Source: Lacticigenium naphthae DSM 19658
GTDB lineage: Bacteria; Bacillota; Bacilli; Lactobacillales; Carnobacteriaceae_A
Assembly: GCF_000425865.1 (NCBI RefSeq)
Contig: NZ_AUEG01000012.1
Coordinates: forward strand, 1-54,340
Direction: 5' to 3'
Length of the DNA stretch: 54,340 bases
Below the pieces are notes generated by a model that did no database searches, had not been told where the DNA came from, and saw nothing but the letters and a program-made list of their open reading frames with translations. Below are positions 24,391 through 32,146 of the stretch, piece after piece (the stretch's first letter is position 1; every line of letters starts with the position of its first letter). The translations under genes and the position numbers were made by a program.

Positions 24391-25077
24391 ATGATTGAAA
24401 TGTCTAATGTCTATAAAAAATATTCAAATGGTATTACAGCAATCAATGGATTGAATATTAAGATAGACCAGGGCGAATTTGTCTATGTAGTTGGACCCAG
24501 CGGAGCAGGGAAATCTACTTTCGTCAAGATGATGTACAGAGAAGAAGTACCCACCCAAGGAAAAATTCAAGTAGGTAAATTTAATTTAGTAAATATGAAA
24601 CAAAAAGATATTCCATATTTAAGAAGATATGTGGGAGTAGTCTTTCAGGACTTTAAATTACTTCCCCGTTTAACAATTTATGAAAATGTAGCATATGCCA
24701 TGGAAGTAGTAGAAAAAAATCCTAAAGTCATTCAAAAAAGAGTTTTAGAAGTTCTTGAATTAGTCGGTCTGAAGCACAAAGTTCGCATGTTCCCAAATGA
24801 ATTATCTGGGGGAGAACAACAACGTGTTGCAATAGCACGGGCCATCGCAAACATGCCAAGTATTCTAATTGCTGATGAACCAACAGGAAACTTAGATCCT
24901 GAGACAGCCTGGGAAATTATGGAAGTTTTAGAAGAAATCAACAATCAAGGCACAACGATTATTATGGCTACACATAATAGTACCATTGTTAACCGCATGA
25001 AGCATCGCGTTCTTGCAGTTGAAAATGGACGTATTGTCCGAGATCAAGCGGAAGGAGAATACGGATATGAGAGCTAG
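24391..25077 (+). CDS. ftsE: Cell division ATPase FtsE
   Basis: A 228-residue ABC ATPase that partners with FtsX to control wall hydrolases at the septum. Visible motifs are Walker A GPSGAGKST (residues about 36-44), the Q-loop VVFQDFKLLP, the signature LSGGEQQRV, Walker B ILIADEPTGNLD and the switch His in MATHN. It is complete and canonical. Its end overlaps ftsX by 11 bases, so the two are translated together. Confidence 0.96.
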   Translation: MIEMSNVYKKYSNGITAINGLNIKIDQGEFVYVVGPSGAGKSTFVKMMYREEVPTQGKIQVGKFNLVNMKQKDIPYLRRYVGVVFQDFKLLPRLTIYENVAYAMEVVEKNPKVIQKRVLEVLELVGLKHKVRMFPNELSGGEQQRVAIARAIANMPSILIADEPTGNLDPETAWEIMEVLEEINNQGTTIIMATHNSTIVNRMKHRVLAVENGRIVRDQAEGEYGYES

Positions 25078-25954
25078 AACATCAGGAAGACACATTAGAG
25101 AAGCGTTTAAAAGTGTGAAAAGGAACGGTTGGATGTCTTTAGCCGCAGTTAGTGCAGTAGCAGTTACATTATTATTGGTCGGAAGTTTTATTGCGATTCT
25201 TTTTAACGTTAACAAGCTAGCATCCGATATAGAAAATGACGTCAGTGTAAGAGTGTATGTCGATTTAGCTGCTGACGAAGAACAACGAGTAGCTTTAGGA
25301 GAAAATCTTGAAAAGATCGAACAAGTAGAGTCAATCGAATACTCTTCTAAAAAAAATGAACTGGATCAAGTAGTAGGTTCATACGGAGATGAATTTAATT
25401 TATTCGAAGGAGACGACAATCCATTGCGAGATGTCTATATTATCAATACGCTTAAACCGGAAGACACAGCTGAAGTTGCCAGTGAGGTAGCAGAAATGGA
25501 TAATGTGGCTGAAGTAAATTACGGCGGTGCTGAAGCGGATAGACTCTTTGAATTAATGGGTACAGCAAGAAATGTAGGAGCAATTGTTGTGTTAGCGTTG
25601 ATCCTTACAGCTGTGTTCTTAATCTCGAACACGATCCGAATCACAATCTTTTCTAGAAGAACTGAAATTGAAATCATGAAATTAGTAGGAGCTACGAATT
25701 GGTTCATTCGCTGGCCATTTGTTATCGAAGGCGCGATAATCGGTTTAATTGGAGCATTGGTTCCCGTGAGTATTATAACTTTCGTTTATATTAATGGGTT
25801 TGATACCATTATGAAATATTTAGCCGGGACTTACTTTTCGTTGCTCAATCCAGCTCCTTTCCTTATTTATTTAAATGCACTCATGCTAGGGATAGGAATA
25901 TTAATAGGAGCTATTGGATCTATCTTATCGATCAGAAAATTTTTAAAAGTATAA
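25067..25954 (+). CDS. ftsX: Cell division membrane protein FtsX
   Basis: A 295-residue membrane partner of FtsE. The pattern is one N-terminal helix (residues about 24-47), an extracellular loop of about 120 residues that docks the hydrolase or activator, and three C-terminal helices of the FtsX permease domain (with FSRRTEIEIMKLVGATNWFIRWPFVIEGA). ATG 25067 lies inside the end of ftsE with AAGGAG ahead. FtsX has no transport function; it couples ATP hydrolysis by FtsE to an extracellular coiled-coil partner. The next gene encodes a secreted coiled-coil protein, the likely partner. Confidence 0.95.
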   Translation: MRARTSGRHIREAFKSVKRNGWMSLAAVSAVAVTLLLVGSFIAILFNVNKLASDIENDVSVRVYVDLAADEEQRVALGENLEKIEQVESIEYSSKKNELDQVVGSYGDEFNLFEGDDNPLRDVYIINTLKPEDTAEVASEVAEMDNVAEVNYGGAEADRLFELMGTARNVGAIVVLALILTAVFLISNTIRITIFSRRTEIEIMKLVGATNWFIRWPFVIEGAIIGLIGALVPVSIITFVYINGFDTIMKYLAGTYFSLLNPAPFLIYLNALMLGIGILIGAIGSILSIRKFLKV

Positions 25955-26002
25955 AAAGTGTGAAAGTAGACTCACTCAAGATTCATTTAAGGAGGGATCC
26001 AA

Positions 26003-27049
26003 GTGAAACTGTCAATTGCCAAATCGCTTATCGTTTTAGCTTGTAGCGGAATGTTCTTTTTCCAAACAGTTGAATCTGTTCAAGCTGAAGAAAATCAGAC
26101 GAATTTTCCAAATGGAGTTGAATACTTTTGGGATCTCTCAACTGAAGAGCAAGTTGAAATAGATAAAGATGTAAAATTACAGCAGTTAGTAGAAGCAAAG
26201 AACAAAGTAGAACAACGGCAAAAAAAATGGAAAAAGCACTACCATGAAGCAGAAGAAAGACATACCGAATTGAAAAAGGAAAAAGAACAGTGGAGCCAGG
26301 CCCAAAAGGCCGCAGTTGAAGCTGAAAAAGAGGAAACATTCTTATCCAAAATCTTTTCCCAGTTTCCTTTAGTTCCAGAAAAAGAAACTGATGGAAAAGA
26401 AAAAGAGGACATGACGCTAGAGGACTTTGATTATCAACTCACTACAATAGGAAACGAATTGAGGATCATTGCAGCACAGTTGGAAAGAGTCAAGAATCAA
26501 TCGGATGAACTTACTCAGTTCAGAGAAGATATCATTACTAATTCTGCTATTGAAAAAGCTGCTTATGAAGAAATGAAAAATATTTCCGAAGAGATAGAAG
26601 AAGAAGATATCGAGATAGAAGAACAGACTGAAGAACAGATCGAAGAAAAAAAAGATGAAGTATCTTCCAGAAAAATATTTGATGAACCACAATCAAATGA
26701 GTTAGTAGCTCAGGCAGTGAACCTTATTGGTATAGAGTATGTATTCGGAGGGTCATCGCAAGACGGATTTGATAGTTCCGGTCTGGTAGAATATATATTT
26801 AAAGAAACAGGTTTCGATATGCAATCCACTGTTTCTTCCCAACTCATGCAAGTCGAGAAAGTGAACCAAATAGAAATGCAACCCGGAGATTTAGTTTTTT
26901 TTAATCAGACGGGAAGAATAGATCATGTAGGCATTTATTTAGGTAATGACGAATTTATTAGTGCACAACCGACAAAGGGTGTCGTAGTGGAAAATATTCA
27001 ATCGGATTATTGGTTTAATAATTTAAGTTCTGTTGGCCGAGTTTCATAA
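26003..27049 (+). CDS. Secreted coiled-coil protein with an NlpC/P60-like domain lacking the catalytic Cys
   Basis: A 348-residue protein starting GTG behind AAGGAGGG. A signal peptide (residues about 1-28, cleaved near VQAEEN) leads into a long charged coiled coil (about 45-215, split by a hinge near 110-150), then an NlpC/P60-type domain (about 230-348). In active members the motif is FDCSG; here residues 256-260 read F-D-S-S-G, so Ser258 (AGT, 26774-26776) takes the place of the Cys nucleophile. His308 of DHVGIYLG is kept, but the third residue, His in FIHAS, is Ser320 in FISAQ. The domain should therefore not cleave peptidoglycan. Lying 48 bases after ftsX it resembles CwlO or PcsB in layout, and EnvC in being a degenerate hydrolase next to FtsEX. 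A role as an activator or scaffold is inference. Confidence 0.85.
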   Translation: MKLSIAKSLIVLACSGMFFFQTVESVQAEENQTNFPNGVEYFWDLSTEEQVEIDKDVKLQQLVEAKNKVEQRQKKWKKHYHEAEERHTELKKEKEQWSQAQKAAVEAEKEETFLSKIFSQFPLVPEKETDGKEKEDMTLEDFDYQLTTIGNELRIIAAQLERVKNQSDELTQFREDIITNSAIEKAAYEEMKNISEEIEEEDIEIEEQTEEQIEEKKDEVSSRKIFDEPQSNELVAQAVNLIGIEYVFGGSSQDGFDSSGLVEYIFKETGFDMQSTVSSQLMQVEKVNQIEMQPGDLVFFNQTGRIDHVGIYLGNDEFISAQPTKGVVVENIQSDYWFNNLSSVGRVS

Positions 27050-27081
27050 AAATCCCCCTAAAAAATGAATGAGTAGAGCGA

Positions 27082-27117
27082 TAAAAAGAGCAGACATTAA
27101 ATCTGCTCTTTTTTTGT
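27082..27117 (+). terminator. Terminator after the NlpC/P60-like gene
   Basis: AAAAAGAGCAGA and TCTGCTCTTTTT pair around CATTAAA, followed by T-run. Confidence 0.88.
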
Positions 27118-27258
27118 TCTTGTCGCATAGTAATAAATGAAATCAGGAGAATAACTTTGTTGTTTTAATTCTATTTATTTATGGGTACAATAGATTAAGA
27201 AGAAATGTACCTTAAAAAGCAATTCAGATTTTTATAAATTATGAGGATGGTGCAAGTA

Positions 27259-28455
27259 ATGTTTGGAAATATACTGACCGCAATAGGATTATTTTTTATT
27301 CAACCTACATTTATTGTGGGAATAGTATTAGCGATTTTATCAGCACAAAGAAGATTGAAATATGAACGATTAACTATGCGTACAGCTATTTTTCGGGAAT
27401 ATAGAGAAGTGAGACTGTTTCTAATGGGAGGTTTGGTAGCTGGATTGGTTGGGTCACTTATTGCATTGGGCATTGGGATGCCGTTCACACTCGACTGGAT
27501 CATATTGTTTCAGATCATTAATATTCTTTTACTTGGTATGGGATATAGATTTATCCATCCACTCTTTAGCTTTTCGTTGACTACACTGATACTGGCAAGT
27601 GCCACATATTTGATTGAACCAAATAGTCTACAGTTTATAGCCACAAGTTGGTTTAGCCCGATCAATCAGGGAATGGCTACCCTATTCACTTTGGGTCAGT
27701 CTACAGGTATACTCACTTTGGTGTTTCTACTATTTTCATTAATGATATTAAAAAAAGTAGCTTCTCAAAACTATACCCCTCATTTTCGCTCTTCTAAACG
27801 TGGGAAAATCATTGCGAATTATCAAATGAAACCTTTTTGGTTGATACCGTTACTCTTAGTTGTTCCAGGCGAAAGTTTTGGTGCACTCTTTGATTGGTGG
27901 CCAGTTTTCTCTATAGGAAATGAAACCTTCTCATTTTTCTTTTTACCTATATTAGCAGGATTCCGCTATACGGCTCAAGCACAACACCCAATTGAAGCCA
28001 CAGATAAAATCATCAAAGAATTAATTCCCACAGCTTTAATAAGCGGAGCACTATTAGTCGCTTCTTACTGGATGCCGATACTCAGTCTAGTTAATGCCGG
28101 AGTGGTATTTCTGTTAACGTTTATTATTTTTTACCGTCACCGTTTACGCGAACGCGAATGGAGTTTTCGATTTGGACCTCCTGAAGAAGGTGTAAAGGTC
28201 ATTGCCATAAGACCAGATACGCCCGCTGCCAAAATGGGACTACAGATTGGGGATACTATTGTCGTCTGCAACAACCAGAAGGTATATGATGCCGACTCTT
28301 TATACCAAGCACTATCTCAAACAAGCGTTTATTGTCATTTGAAAATCAAGCAAGCCGATGGAGAGTTGCGATTAGCAGAGACCGCAGTTTACGATGACGC
28401 CCCTCATGATATGGGAATTGTTACACTGTCTCAAATAACTATACCAAGAAAGTAG
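27259..28455 (+). CDS. Polytopic membrane protein with C-terminal PDZ domain (MinJ-like)
   Basis: A protein of about 398 residues with roughly eight hydrophobic helices in the first 300 residues and a C-terminal PDZ domain (about 305-390; VKVIAIRPDTPAAKMGLQIGD). This layout matches Bacillus MinJ, a topology protein linking DivIVA to MinD, and the position behind ftsEX suits it. No protease residues are seen, so it is probably an adaptor rather than an enzyme. The start is uncertain: ATG 27241 has no ribosome site, while ATG 27259 has GAGGATGG somewhat upstream; I prefer the latter. phoP follows after seven bases. Identity as MinJ rests on layout, not on close sequence match. Confidence 0.72.
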   Translation: MFGNILTAIGLFFIQPTFIVGIVLAILSAQRRLKYERLTMRTAIFREYREVRLFLMGGLVAGLVGSLIALGIGMPFTLDWIILFQIINILLLGMGYRFIHPLFSFSLTTLILASATYLIEPNSLQFIATSWFSPINQGMATLFTLGQSTGILTLVFLLFSLMILKKVASQNYTPHFRSSKRGKIIANYQMKPFWLIPLLLVVPGESFGALFDWWPVFSIGNETFSFFFLPILAGFRYTAQAQHPIEATDKIIKELIPTALISGALLVASYWMPILSLVNAGVVFLLTFIIFYRHRLREREWSFRFGPPEEGVKVIAIRPDTPAAKMGLQIGDTIVVCNNQKVYDADSLYQALSQTSVYCHLKIKQADGELRLAETAVYDDAPHDMGIVTLSQITIPRK

Positions 28456-28462
28456 GAATGAC

Positions 28463-29185
28463 ATGAAAAAAGTACTGATTGTTGATGATGAGCAGTCGAT
28501 TCTCACTTTATTATCTTTTAATTTAAAAAAAGAAGGGTATGCAGTAGATACAGCTTTAGACGGACAAGAAGGCTATCAACTTGCTAAGAAAAATCAGTAT
28601 GATTTCATCATTTTGGATTTGATGCTCCCAACAATGGATGGCATGGAAATTTGTAAAAGTTTGAGACAAGATAAAATTGAAACACCCATTTTGATGTTAA
28701 CCGCAAAAGATAGTGAAATCGATAAGATAATCGGTTTGGAAATTGGCGCCGACGATTACATGACTAAACCCTTTAGTCCCAGAGAAGTATTTGCACGTAT
28801 GAAAGCAATTTTGAGGAGAAGTAAAAACAATTCTCCTTCCGATGAAAGCAAACCGGAAGAAGCAGAGGATCAGCAAGAAGAAATTCGTGTAGGCGATATC
28901 GTTATTTATCCGACCCAGTATGAAGTGATTGTACGTGGAGACAAGATTGAATTTACGCCCAAAGAATTTGAACTGCTTGTGTATTTAGTGAAAAGGAAAA
29001 ATCGCATTCTAAGTAGAGAGCAACTCTTGAATGCGATTTGGGATATCGATTTTGCTGGTGAAACACGTATAGTTGATGTGCACATCAGCCATCTTAGAGA
29101 AAAAATCGAAGAGAATACGAAAACCCCCCTATATATTAAGACTGCACGAGGGTTTGGTTACAAATTTGAGGTTCCAAAAGAATGA
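28463..29185 (+). CDS. phoP: PhoP-type response regulator
   Basis: A 240-residue OmpR/PhoB-family regulator. The receiver domain has the acidic pocket (VDDEQ), the phospho-acceptor Asp52 in LDLMLPTMDG, and the Lys in TKPFSPRE; the winged-helix domain (about 140-238) ends with VDVHISHLREKIEE and RGFGYKFE. It overlaps the kinase gene by four bases (ATGA). Its place directly before two pst operons with TTTACA direct repeats in their promoters identifies it as the phosphate regulator; by sequence alone WalR/VicR would be close. A long Ser/Glu-rich linker of about 20 residues separates the domains. Confidence 0.88.
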   Translation: MKKVLIVDDEQSILTLLSFNLKKEGYAVDTALDGQEGYQLAKKNQYDFIILDLMLPTMDGMEICKSLRQDKIETPILMLTAKDSEIDKIIGLEIGADDYMTKPFSPREVFARMKAILRRSKNNSPSDESKPEEAEDQQEEIRVGDIVIYPTQYEVIVRGDKIEFTPKEFELLVYLVKRKNRILSREQLLNAIWDIDFAGETRIVDVHISHLREKIEENTKTPLYIKTARGFGYKFEVPKE

Positions 29186-30951
29186 GACAACTTAGAAAAA
29201 GGATTATATTGATTTCTTTAGGTATTTTTTCTCTGTTTGCTATTTTATTTGGTTTTTATGCTATTTCTCTCGTTGAGGAGACATCTTTTCAACAGCAGAA
29301 AGAATCTGTGCAAAATCAATTAGCAACATTGACGAGTCAATTAAACTTGGAGTTAGATAGTGGAGCGTCGATTTCAGAATTAAATAAAAATCTGGAGTGG
29401 GCTTCTCAAGCCATTTCAGAGCGAGTAACGCTAATAAATTTGGCTGGAGTCGTTTTGTATGATAGTCACGCAGAAGTGGCTACTCTGGAAAATCACTTCG
29501 ACAGAGATGAAGTACAAGATGCATTGAATACAGGTGAAAAAGGAACGGATACAAGAATAAGTGAAAGTACGAATGAGCAACTGTATTATGTAGCAGAACC
29601 TCTTCGGGACGTGGAAAATCAAATTCAAGGAATCATACGATTATCTAAGCCGATTGATGAGATGAGTGAGGTCGTGTCTCAAATTGAACAATCACTAGTT
29701 TTATTCGTTGGAATCTCTTTAGTGGTTACTACTCTCTTTACAACACGCTGGACCAAAAAGATAGCTGGTCCCATTGAAGAAATAAAAGATGTAGCAGAAG
29801 ACTTAGCTAATCATGACTATTCTTCACGCTATATGGGAAGGTCATTTGGAGAAATTGATGCTTTAGGAAACACTGTGAATGAATTGGCTACGAGTTTAGA
29901 TAGTCAATTAGAGGAAATCACACGGAATGACGAACAGTTAAGAGAATTGATCAACCATCTGGTTATTGGCGTTTTACTGATAGACGAAGAACGAAATATT
30001 GAAATGGTCAATCCTGCGATGAACGGGGTTCTTACAGAAAATGCATACGATAAAATCGGTAAATCTTATGTAGAAATTATTAAAAGTTCTGGATTGGCTC
30101 GTCTAATTGAGGAAGCATATACTTCCGGGGAAAATCAGCACGATGAAATCTATTTTTACTATCCAAATGAAAAAATTGTGGATGCAAATGTGCTGCCTAT
30201 CTCTGATCGAGAGAAAAACACAGTTCAATTAATCGTTCTGCTTTATGATATTACTCAAATCAGGCAGTTAGAAAAAGTGAGAACTGATTTTGTTGCGAAT
30301 GCTTCTCACGAATTGAAAACACCCATTACAGCTCTAAAAGGATTTACAGAGACTCTGTTAGATGGTGCTCTTGAGGATCGTGAAACATTGATTGAATTTT
30401 TAAATATCATATATAAAGAAAGCACACGGTTAGATTTAATGGTGAATGATATTCTGCAGTTATCTAAATTAGAACATCATCAAATACCTTTAAATAAACA
30501 ACAAGTATCGATAAAAGATTCGGTGGAATCAGTTTTTGAGATTGTAAAACAAAAAGCAATGGAAAAGCAGATTTCTCTCCAAGTACGGGAGATAGAATCT
30601 TTTAAACTGCGAGTAGATCCCAATCAACTAAACCAAATATTGATGAATTTAATTACGAATGCAGTTACGTACACTTCAGAAAATGGAACGGTAACAGTTG
30701 TCATTGATAAAACCTCAACAGAAGCCATAATTGAAATCAGTGACACTGGGATGGGAATACCTTTACAGGAACAACCGCGTATATTTGAACGCTTCTACCG
30801 TGTGGATAAAGCAAGAAGTCGAAATTCTGGAGGGACAGGGCTCGGACTTTCAATTGTTAAGTATTTAGTTGAAAACCTAAGAGGTGAAATCGAAGTAAAA
30901 AGTCAACTTGGGTTAGGCTCGACGTTTACTGTGCGATTACCTCTGGACTAA
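29182..30951 (+). CDS. phoR: PhoR-type sensor histidine kinase
   Basis: A 589-residue membrane kinase: helix 1 (about 7-29), an extracellular domain of about 130 residues, helix 2 (about 166-187), HAMP, a PAS domain (about 255-360; VIGVLLIDEERNIEMVNPAM), the HisKA dimerisation helix with His376 in ASHELKTP, and the HATPase domain with the N box (NLITNAVTY), ISDTGMGIP and GGTGLGLSIVK. It phosphorylates PhoP. The extracellular part looks like the sCACHE-type region of PhoR. Signal probably reaches it through PhoU and the Pst complex encoded downstream. A terminator separates it from pstS1, so the pst genes have their own promoters. Confidence 0.9.
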   Translation: MRQLRKRIILISLGIFSLFAILFGFYAISLVEETSFQQQKESVQNQLATLTSQLNLELDSGASISELNKNLEWASQAISERVTLINLAGVVLYDSHAEVATLENHFDRDEVQDALNTGEKGTDTRISESTNEQLYYVAEPLRDVENQIQGIIRLSKPIDEMSEVVSQIEQSLVLFVGISLVVTTLFTTRWTKKIAGPIEEIKDVAEDLANHDYSSRYMGRSFGEIDALGNTVNELATSLDSQLEEITRNDEQLRELINHLVIGVLLIDEERNIEMVNPAMNGVLTENAYDKIGKSYVEIIKSSGLARLIEEAYTSGENQHDEIYFYYPNEKIVDANVLPISDREKNTVQLIVLLYDITQIRQLEKVRTDFVANASHELKTPITALKGFTETLLDGALEDRETLIEFLNIIYKESTRLDLMVNDILQLSKLEHHQIPLNKQQVSIKDSVESVFEIVKQKAMEKQISLQVREIESFKLRVDPNQLNQILMNLITNAVTYTSENGTVTVVIDKTSTEAIIEISDTGMGIPLQEQPRIFERFYRVDKARSRNSGGTGLGLSIVKYLVENLRGEIEVKSQLGLGSTFTVRLPLD

Positions 30952-30989
30952 TAGAGTTAAACTGCGTTGCCATACAAAAATGCATAATA

Positions 30990-31028
30990 AAAAAGACTGT
31001 GACACAAAAATGTGTTCAGTCTTTTTTT
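30990..31028 (+). terminator. Terminator after phoR
   Basis: AAAGACTGTGACACA and TGTGTTCAGTCTTT pair around an A-loop, then T-run. Confidence 0.85.
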
Positions 31029-31052
31029 CTTGTACACATTTAAATTAGTCAA

Positions 31053-31130
31053 TTAACTATATTTTTACAAATGTTTACAGAATGTTTACAGGAAATTCGT
31101 TCGATATTTATAACAAACCTTTAGTATAAG
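31053..31130 (+). promoter_or_regulatory. PhoP box and promoter of the first pst operon
   Basis: Four direct repeats in phase with the helix: TTAACT (31053), TTTACA (31064), TTTACA (31074), TTTACA (31085), at steps of 11, 10 and 11 bases. This fits the Firmicute PhoP box (TTAACA-like hexamers with 4-6 base spacers). Two -10 candidates: TTATAA at 31108-31113, which puts the last hexamer at -35 with a 17-base spacer, or TATAAG at 31125-31130. Confidence 0.85.
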
Positions 31131-31180
31131 AGTTGTGGACGAGAGAGTTGTCCGAATCTAAAATAAAAGGGGTATGAAAA

Positions 31181-32146
31181 ATGGAATGGAATAAAATTGC
31201 AAAATTGACAACAACCTTAGGAGTAACTTTGGTGTTAGCAGCATGTGGAAATGAAGCGACGAATGGAGACACGAACGAAGCAGAAGGCGAAACAACAAAT
31301 AGCCTTTCTGGTTCAGTACAAGTAGATGGATCATCTACGGTATTTCCTATTATGGAAGCTGTTGCAGAGGAATTTTCAATGGAATACCCTGAAGCTCAAG
31401 CGACCATTGGTGTATCCGGAACTGGCGGAGGAATGGAAAAGTTCATCGCTGGAGAAACAGATATCAGCAATGCTTCTCGTCCAATGAAAGAAGAAGAGGC
31501 TACGATGCTTGAAGAAGCAGGAATCGAGTCTACAGAATTCAGAATTGCTCTTGACGGATTATCCGTAGTTGTTCATCCTTCCAACGACTGGGTCGATTAT
31601 CTTACTGTAGAAGAATTGAAATCCATTTGGCTTGAAGAAAGTGATGTAGAAACTTGGGCAGATGTGAGAAGTGAATGGCCAGAAGAAAAAATTGAATTGT
31701 TTAGTCCTGGAACAGATTCTGGAACCTATGATTATTTTGATGAAGTAATCTTAGATGGGGAACAAATTGATAGAGAAGCTTCTTTATCCGAAGATGATAA
31801 CATTTTAGTTCAAGGCGTAATGGGATCTGAAAATGGATTGGCATACTTCGGTTATGCATATTACGCAGAAAATGAAGGAAATGTAAAAATTGTTCCAATA
31901 GAGAATGGTGAAGGCGAAGTAGTGACACCTAGTAGTGAAACTGTTCAAGATGGATCGTATGAACCATTATCAAGACCTTTATTCTTCTATGTGAATAACG
32001 AATCCATAAAAGATGATACAGTATATGAGTTCACTAAATATACCTTAGAAATGGCAGGAGATATGGCTACGGAAGTTGGCTATGTTGCCTTGGAAGATTC
32101 CATTTATACAGAAAGTTTAGAAACTCTCGAAAACTTAAGAGAATAG
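31181..32146 (+). CDS. pstS1: Phosphate-binding lipoprotein PstS (first copy)
   Basis: A 321-residue substrate-binding lipoprotein. The signal ends in VLAAC, so Cys22 should be lipidated and anchored outside the membrane. Phosphate-binding elements are VDGSSTVFPIMEAVAEEF, VSGTGGGMEKF and SPGTDSGTYDYF. It hands phosphate to the PstCA channel. It is rich in acidic residues. Its own message starts at the PhoP-box promoter; a weak hairpin separates it from pstC1, which may let pstS1 be made in excess. It differs clearly from the second PstS in this window. Confidence 0.95.
   Translation: MEWNKIAKLTTTLGVTLVLAACGNEATNGDTNEAEGETTNSLSGSVQVDGSSTVFPIMEAVAEEFSMEYPEAQATIGVSGTGGGMEKFIAGETDISNASRPMKEEEATMLEEAGIESTEFRIALDGLSVVVHPSNDWVDYLTVEELKSIWLEESDVETWADVRSEWPEEKIELFSPGTDSGTYDYFDEVILDGEQIDREASLSEDDNILVQGVMGSENGLAYFGYAYYAENEGNVKIVPIENGEGEVVTPSSETVQDGSYEPLSRPLFFYVNNESIKDDTVYEFTKYTLEMAGDMATEVGYVALEDSIYTESLETLENLRE

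Follow-up and report, generated by a model that had tools for sequence, protein, structure and literature searches.

A probably non-catalytic NlpC/P60 protein encoded behind ftsX in Lacticigenium naphthae, with an eroded PcsB-type coiled coil

Introduction

What becomes of an FtsEX-linked cell wall hydrolase when its catalytic cysteine is replaced and its gene stays beside ftsX? This question is raised by a gene in a stretch of 54,340 nucleotides from Lacticigenium naphthae DSM 19658 (assembly GCF_000425865.1, contig NZ_AUEG01000012.1, forward strand), hereafter the window; the genome comprises 2.13 Mb in 32 contigs. Two contacts of FtsX with coiled coils have been described: PMC11627006 describes coiled-coil residues 114-160 of EnvC as engaging FtsX, and PMC6355983 reports that pneumococcal FtsX binds PcsB via its coiled-coil domain. 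A sequence-only reading of the window had proposed that the gene encodes a secreted protein with an intact coiled coil and an NlpC/P60 domain that has lost two active-site residues independently, retained for a non-catalytic role and perhaps constituting a counterpart of EnvC built from another hydrolase fold. We followed up this proposal using domain and homologue searches, structure prediction, phylogenetic trees and an analysis of sequence constraint.

Results

The gene is a 348-codon open reading frame with a GTG start at 26003-27049, immediately 3' of ftsX according to the sequence and the list of open reading frames, and all features described here between 24391 and 28455 lie on the forward strand. 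The gene order ftsE, ftsX and this frame, as proposed, is visible in the sequence. The ftsE gene (24391-25077), encoding the ATPase of FtsEX, matches Pfam ABC_tran and is 85% identical to its orthologue in a related genome, G003. The ftsX gene (25067-25954, its start being placed by alignment with relatives) matches FtsX_ECD at 75.4 bits as well as the FtsX permease domain, and shows 76% identity to G003. A probable ribosome-binding site, AGGAGG, occupies 25990-25995, 7 bases upstream of the GTG start. Downstream, a terminator-like hairpin of 12 pairs with a T tail (27083-27113) is weak evidence by itself, as two such sites occur in the region against 1.4 expected. It is followed by a gene for a membrane protein with a PDZ domain (27241-28455; PDZ_2/PDZ_6), a syntenic neighbour in relatives that we take to be MinJ-like. 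Over 24391-32146, these four genes are succeeded by genes for a two-component pair resembling PhoP/PhoR and for a PstS-like binding protein, and parts of this longer order are found again in several related genera.

The protein begins with a probable Sec signal peptide at residues 1-26 (26003-26080), read by eye with cleavage at VQA/EE. Cys14 (VLAC, 26042-26044) is readable as a weak lipobox, and a lipoprotein would be membrane-anchored; none of 22 aligned relatives has a Cys at this position. The C-terminal domain was assigned to residues 231-348 (26693-27046), within which Pfam NLPC_P60 covers residues 244-344 (90.4 bits, E 8.7e-26) as the sole Pfam domain at E 0.001. AlphaFold2 predicted this domain with pLDDT means of 89-96, and Foldseek matched it to MepS, LytE and SagA, which bears out the proposed NlpC/P60-like fold. 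The replacement of the catalytic Cys by Ser258 (codon AGT, 26774-26776) and the retention of the catalytic-site His308 (CAT, 26924-26926) were likewise borne out. The same Cys-to-Ser replacement is seen in the PDB, where MepS chain 7v6s_A has DSSG and chains 8xud_I and 2k1g_A have DCSG; the Ser in 7v6s_A was presumably engineered for inactivation.

The second proposed loss did not survive the alignment. Ser320 (AGT, 26960-26962) had been taken to replace the His of the triad; this candidate was rejected because the site is Gly in 28 Cys-bearing loci (FIGAQ/FIGSQ) and Asn in 8 Listeria proteins (MINAQ), with His in none of them. The third catalytic residue of SagA is His506 (PMC6483599). Gly320Ser is a real change, common to this protein and its G003 counterpart. 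Given Ser here and Gly in the Cys-bearing relatives, site 320 is uninformative on a third polar residue; Gln322 is kept. Only the Cys is therefore a loss relative to Cys-bearing relatives, rather than one of two independent losses. The relatives that the sequence-only reading named as potential counter-evidence, carrying both Cys and His, were found to have the Cys, with Gly or Asn instead of the His.

The replacement of the Cys is rare among the linked relatives that were read. A domain search over 395 genomes of the order matched 98 genomes at E 1e-18, and residues were read in the best 30 loci, all of which contain ftsX. Cys occupies the site in 28 of these loci, Ser in one (this genome) and Tyr in one (G003), so Ser258 is not shared by any other of these 30 loci, and Ser320 is shared with G003. 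Excluding the window's own, 22 of 23 ftsX-linked loci carry Cys, with G003 (Tyr) as the exception. In a second genome scan, an NlpC/P60 gene stood next behind ftsX in 22 of the best 80 loci, all with FDCSG: 14 from Alkalibacterium, Marinilactibacillus, Atopostipes, Desemzia and Pisciglobus and 8 from Listeria. Several of these loci probably lie on the same contigs as those from the homologue search with the 348-residue protein, and one further match of the second scan, L148, is distant and incomplete with FDCSG. Moreover, 19 of 36 loci gathered by CC_PcsB and hydrolase searches have an NlpC/P60 domain, and all 19, including this genome's own paralogue, have the Cys. The order ftsE, ftsX, NlpC/P60 gene and PDZ protein gene recurs in many related genomes. 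Among 27 genomes of the family, the linked gene is Cys-bearing in 18, Cys-less in 2 and absent behind ftsX in 7, which marks it as dispensable in the family. It was not found behind ftsX in G005, G001 and G007, and G005 gave zero matches to the 348-residue protein at E 0.001. The search for gene remnants behind ftsX in the seven genomes without the gene returned weak matches only, the best (E 0.021) covering 36 residues in a 2.7-kb stretch of G005. This genus and that of G003 were each represented by a single genome.

The coiled coil, proposed to be intact, was found to be eroded. The CC_PcsB model matched neither the 348-residue protein nor the linked protein of G003 at a search threshold of E 5, where the program's filters remove most matches above about 0.1. 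The same search returned 65-82 bits for four linked orthologues and the paralogue, all five Cys-bearing. In the alignment, the segment retains residual homology with a shortened hairpin tip. The AlphaFold2 model of the hairpin (residues 47-209, 26141-26629) has helices at 47-118 and 139-209 with a disordered tip at about 119-138, and ten-residue pLDDT means are mostly 51-72 in the arms and 38-50 in the tip. The Marinilactibacillus orthologue was modelled with longer arms, mostly at pLDDT 76-93, and a tip helix at 117-125, itself of low confidence (pLDDT 53-66), which is absent from the model of our protein. The reading of an intact coiled coil was rejected on these grounds. The linked protein of G003 has 191 residues, and its coiled-coil segment is wholly absent.

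Kinship between this genome (G000) and G003 was considered using several trees. The FtsX tree did not resolve it and placed the long-branched G001 far away. A quick SecA tree grouped G000, G003 and G001 with SH-aLRT 100, and a pair of G000 and G003 alone was not rejected (p-AU 0.449). The paralogue domains of the two genomes form a pair at 94/95 in a set of just five paralogues, that of G003 being a fragment. In the domain tree, the linked proteins of both genomes group with each other on long branches, apart from every other sequence including the paralogues (82/79), a placement that is not reliable; consequently, the orthology of the linked proteins rests on synteny. The branch of the linked NlpC/P60 domain measures 1.43 here and 0.46 in G003, against a median end branch of 0.05. 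The corresponding values are 0.077 and 0.15 for FtsX, 0.24 and 0.16 for SecA, and 0.13 in both genomes for the paralogue domain. These comparisons indicate that the linked protein evolved fast, and most of all in this genome.

Despite this rate, the domain retains most of its conserved positions. We defined as constrained those positions that are invariant in all, or all but one, of 21 Cys-bearing orthologues, a set excluding L015 (a domain duplicate of L014) and L018 (missed in the BLAST step). The protein keeps 35 of the 44 constrained positions and agrees with the majority residue at 15 of the 69 variable ones (Fisher, 1.6e-9); the G003 protein scores 39 and 29, respectively (4.9e-7). As a control, each of the 21 orthologues compared with the rest loses 0 to 4 constrained positions. 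Beside 258, eight constrained residues have changed here (272, 275, 277, 292, 316, 320, 324 and 343), of which Val277 and Ser320 are common to both proteins. In neutral simulations of substitutions only, without indels, a domain at 1.43 replacements per residue acquired a mean of 4.7 stops and stayed stop-free in 1 of 200 runs; at the 0.46 of G003, the mean was 2.1 stops and 17 of 200 runs were stop-free, making this a weak test for G003. The codon-position GC of the linked gene resembles that of its neighbors. Selection on the fold can be argued from the kept constrained positions, the open frame, the simulation and the codon-position GC, and the protein is apparently kept under selection, as judged from its sequence, although the conservation may in part be older than the loss of the Cys.

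The genome also contains other wall hydrolases, in keeping with the expectation that an active enzyme should exist elsewhere. CC_PcsB occurs in all 27 family genomes, and four CC_PcsB proteins are found here, the 348-residue protein not being among them. One is the paralogue at C1:320078, which is the sole other NLPC_P60 match in the genome, has an intact Cys (FDCSG) and aligns with PcsB 4CGK over residues 2-268 (E 1e-27). Two are M23 proteins (C1:345864 and C2:100342) with the zinc motifs HxxxD and HxH. The fourth, at C3:65091 (L190:1935-3071), is a weaker match of 38.5 bits; this protein of 378 residues has a PcsB-like coiled coil and, at its C-terminus, a region matching EntA-D wall-binding family models that presumably is what is called a 3D domain. 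Three Amidase_3 proteins complete this inventory. An amidase or CHAP partner had been suggested; amidases are thus present, and the only CHAP match in the genome overlaps the paralogue. The candidate substitute hydrolases differ between lineages, since the NlpC/P60 paralogue of G003 is an N-terminally truncated, Cys-intact domain fragment at the syntenic place (L196:1509-1838, G003:C40). In G003, either neither NlpC/P60 hydrolase of the pair is intact, or the assembly is broken.

Discussion

Our findings are better explained by a hydrolase that is escaping from FtsX control of the PcsB type than by a clean Gram-positive EnvC. The proposal of a retained, non-catalytic role is supported as probable by the replaced Cys, the kept constrained positions and the open frame, and from its sequence the protein is probably non-catalytic. 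RipD (Rv1566c) of mycobacteria is a noncatalytic NlpC/P60 protein that binds peptidoglycan, as described in PMC12067865. That the 348-residue protein is a RipD-like peptidoglycan binder of this kind is the explanation that we favor, with belief and doubt about evenly balanced. A non-catalytic wall binder is suggested by the combination of a retained groove with a missing nucleophile, in a protein that probably has a signal peptide and whose gene adjoins ftsX. The ancestor, encoded immediately after ftsEX, would have been a secreted PcsB/SagA-type hydrolase with a PcsB coiled coil and an NlpC/P60 domain. Hydrolase duty may have been abandoned in this lineage as the nucleophile became Ser here and Tyr in G003, while the coiled-coil tip, the presumed grip of FtsX, eroded here and the entire coiled coil disappeared in G003. 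The linked gene would nonetheless have stayed in the ftsEX unit with its NlpC/P60 groove preserved, and its product could be a secreted binder of stem peptides that occupies or marks wall in the vicinity of FtsEX or acts as a competitor of active enzymes. FtsEX-controlled cutting would then probably be performed by the other PcsB-type coiled-coil proteins, namely the NlpC/P60 paralogue, the two M23 proteins and the one of 3D type. We infer each of these elements, namely the absence of catalysis, peptidoglycan binding, the loss of FtsX control and the identity of the replacing protein. Kept FtsX control is possible, yet less likely given the erosion of the tip here and the loss of the coiled coil in G003.

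The gene might alternatively be in the course of decay, redundant with other PcsB-type hydrolases, with one base substitution having recently removed its Cys and too little time having passed for the frame to close. We regard this as doubtful, though it deserves serious consideration. The family's trend towards losing the linked gene, which 7 of the 27 genomes lack behind ftsX, fits decay equally, and the vanished coiled coil in G003, the reduction of the Cys-intact G003 paralogue to a domain fragment and the branch of 1.43 in the linked domain, compared with 0.13 for the paralogue domain and 0.077 for FtsX, all point in the same direction. However, constrained positions are kept far better than variable ones, the frame remains open over 348 codons, the codon-position GC is neighbor-like, the ribosome-binding site is kept, and the domain persists in two divergent lineages. 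Plain decay therefore fits poorly with constrained positions and a frame maintained despite fast evolution.

The role first proposed, that of a Gram-positive adaptor in the manner of EnvC, would have FtsX move the coiled coil so that an exposed dead NlpC/P60 domain switches on a separate hydrolase. The linkage to ftsX, the replaced catalytic Cys, a predicted antiparallel helical hairpin (of low confidence, with a disordered tip) and the presence of three Amidase_3 and two M23 proteins as possible targets are consistent with this idea. Nevertheless, the presumed docking tip is what has eroded: CC_PcsB finds no match and the tip helix is missing. In EnvC, coiled-coil residues 114-160 make the contact with FtsX (PMC11627006). 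Furthermore, the domain is kept in G003 without any coiled coil, and the four other PcsB-type coiled-coil proteins could themselves be direct FtsEX clients, so that no dead adaptor is required. The idea is thus weakened, and we consider it unlikely.

More improbable still is an otherwise active enzyme whose codon 258 reads AGT instead of TGT through a mistake in sequencing or a mutation of this strain: AGT lies one base from TGT and a single assembly represents the genus, but the coiled coil is eroded, eight other constrained residues have changed, and G003 also lacks the Cys and shares Val277 and Ser320. It is least probable, to the point of being hard to credit, that the protein is still an enzyme with Ser258 as the nucleophile or with new chemistry, as might be argued from the retention of His308, Asp257, Ser259 and most constrained positions, given Tyr at the same site in G003, the presumably engineered, inactivating Cys-to-Ser in the MepS chain and the failure of SagA C443A, albeit with Ala rather than Ser, to yield products from peptidoglycan (PMC6483599).

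On the favored reading of a non-catalytic wall binder, the gene of an FtsEX-linked hydrolase has remained beside ftsX while its product is losing the catalytic residue along with the module presumed to bind FtsX. Comparing this genome with G003 and with intact relatives separates catalysis from docking and raises the question whether a dead client is tolerated by FtsEX or even benefits it. Should the protein bind the wall without cutting it, a Gram-positive parallel to RipD would sit beside the division machine; should the EnvC-like reading prove true, the principle of EnvC would have been invented a second time, with a different hydrolase fold, in a Gram-positive lineage and within the ftsEX operon.

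There are known examples both of a dead NlpC/P60 domain, in RipD, and of a dead hydrolase domain linked to FtsEX, in EnvC, where the fold is LytM. Among the matches listed in a search of titles and abstract openings of the open-licence literature, an FtsEX-linked dead NlpC/P60 protein, that is, the combination of the two behind ftsX in a Gram-positive lineage, was not found. With EnvC of E. coli, the protein shares a helical hairpin, here predicted with low confidence, that is associated with FtsEX and joined to a hydrolase domain that is dead in EnvC and probably dead here (EnvC as described in PMC11627006). It differs in having an NlpC/P60 fold rather than a LytM (M23) fold that lacks zinc ligands, in its eroded tip and in the presence of other PcsB-type proteins in the genome. 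In both RipD and our protein, the NlpC/P60 fold is kept and the catalytic Cys is replaced. The triad of RipD reads Ala83-Ser132-Glu144 and a C-terminal pentapeptide repeat follows (PMC12067865), whereas the 348-residue protein keeps His308 and ends with the domain, and its score of 39.2 bits against the NCBIfam model NlpC_inact_RipD falls far below the cut-off of 215. The closest comparison is with the PcsB/SagA-type hydrolases, which combine CC_PcsB with NlpC/P60 or CHAP. Unlike them, the 348-residue protein lacks the catalytic Cys, a CC_PcsB match and the predicted helix at the hairpin tip; like them, it has a signal peptide (by eye), a coiled coil and a C-terminal papain-fold domain, its gene lies directly behind ftsX, and synteny makes it an orthologue of the linked NlpC/P60 genes.
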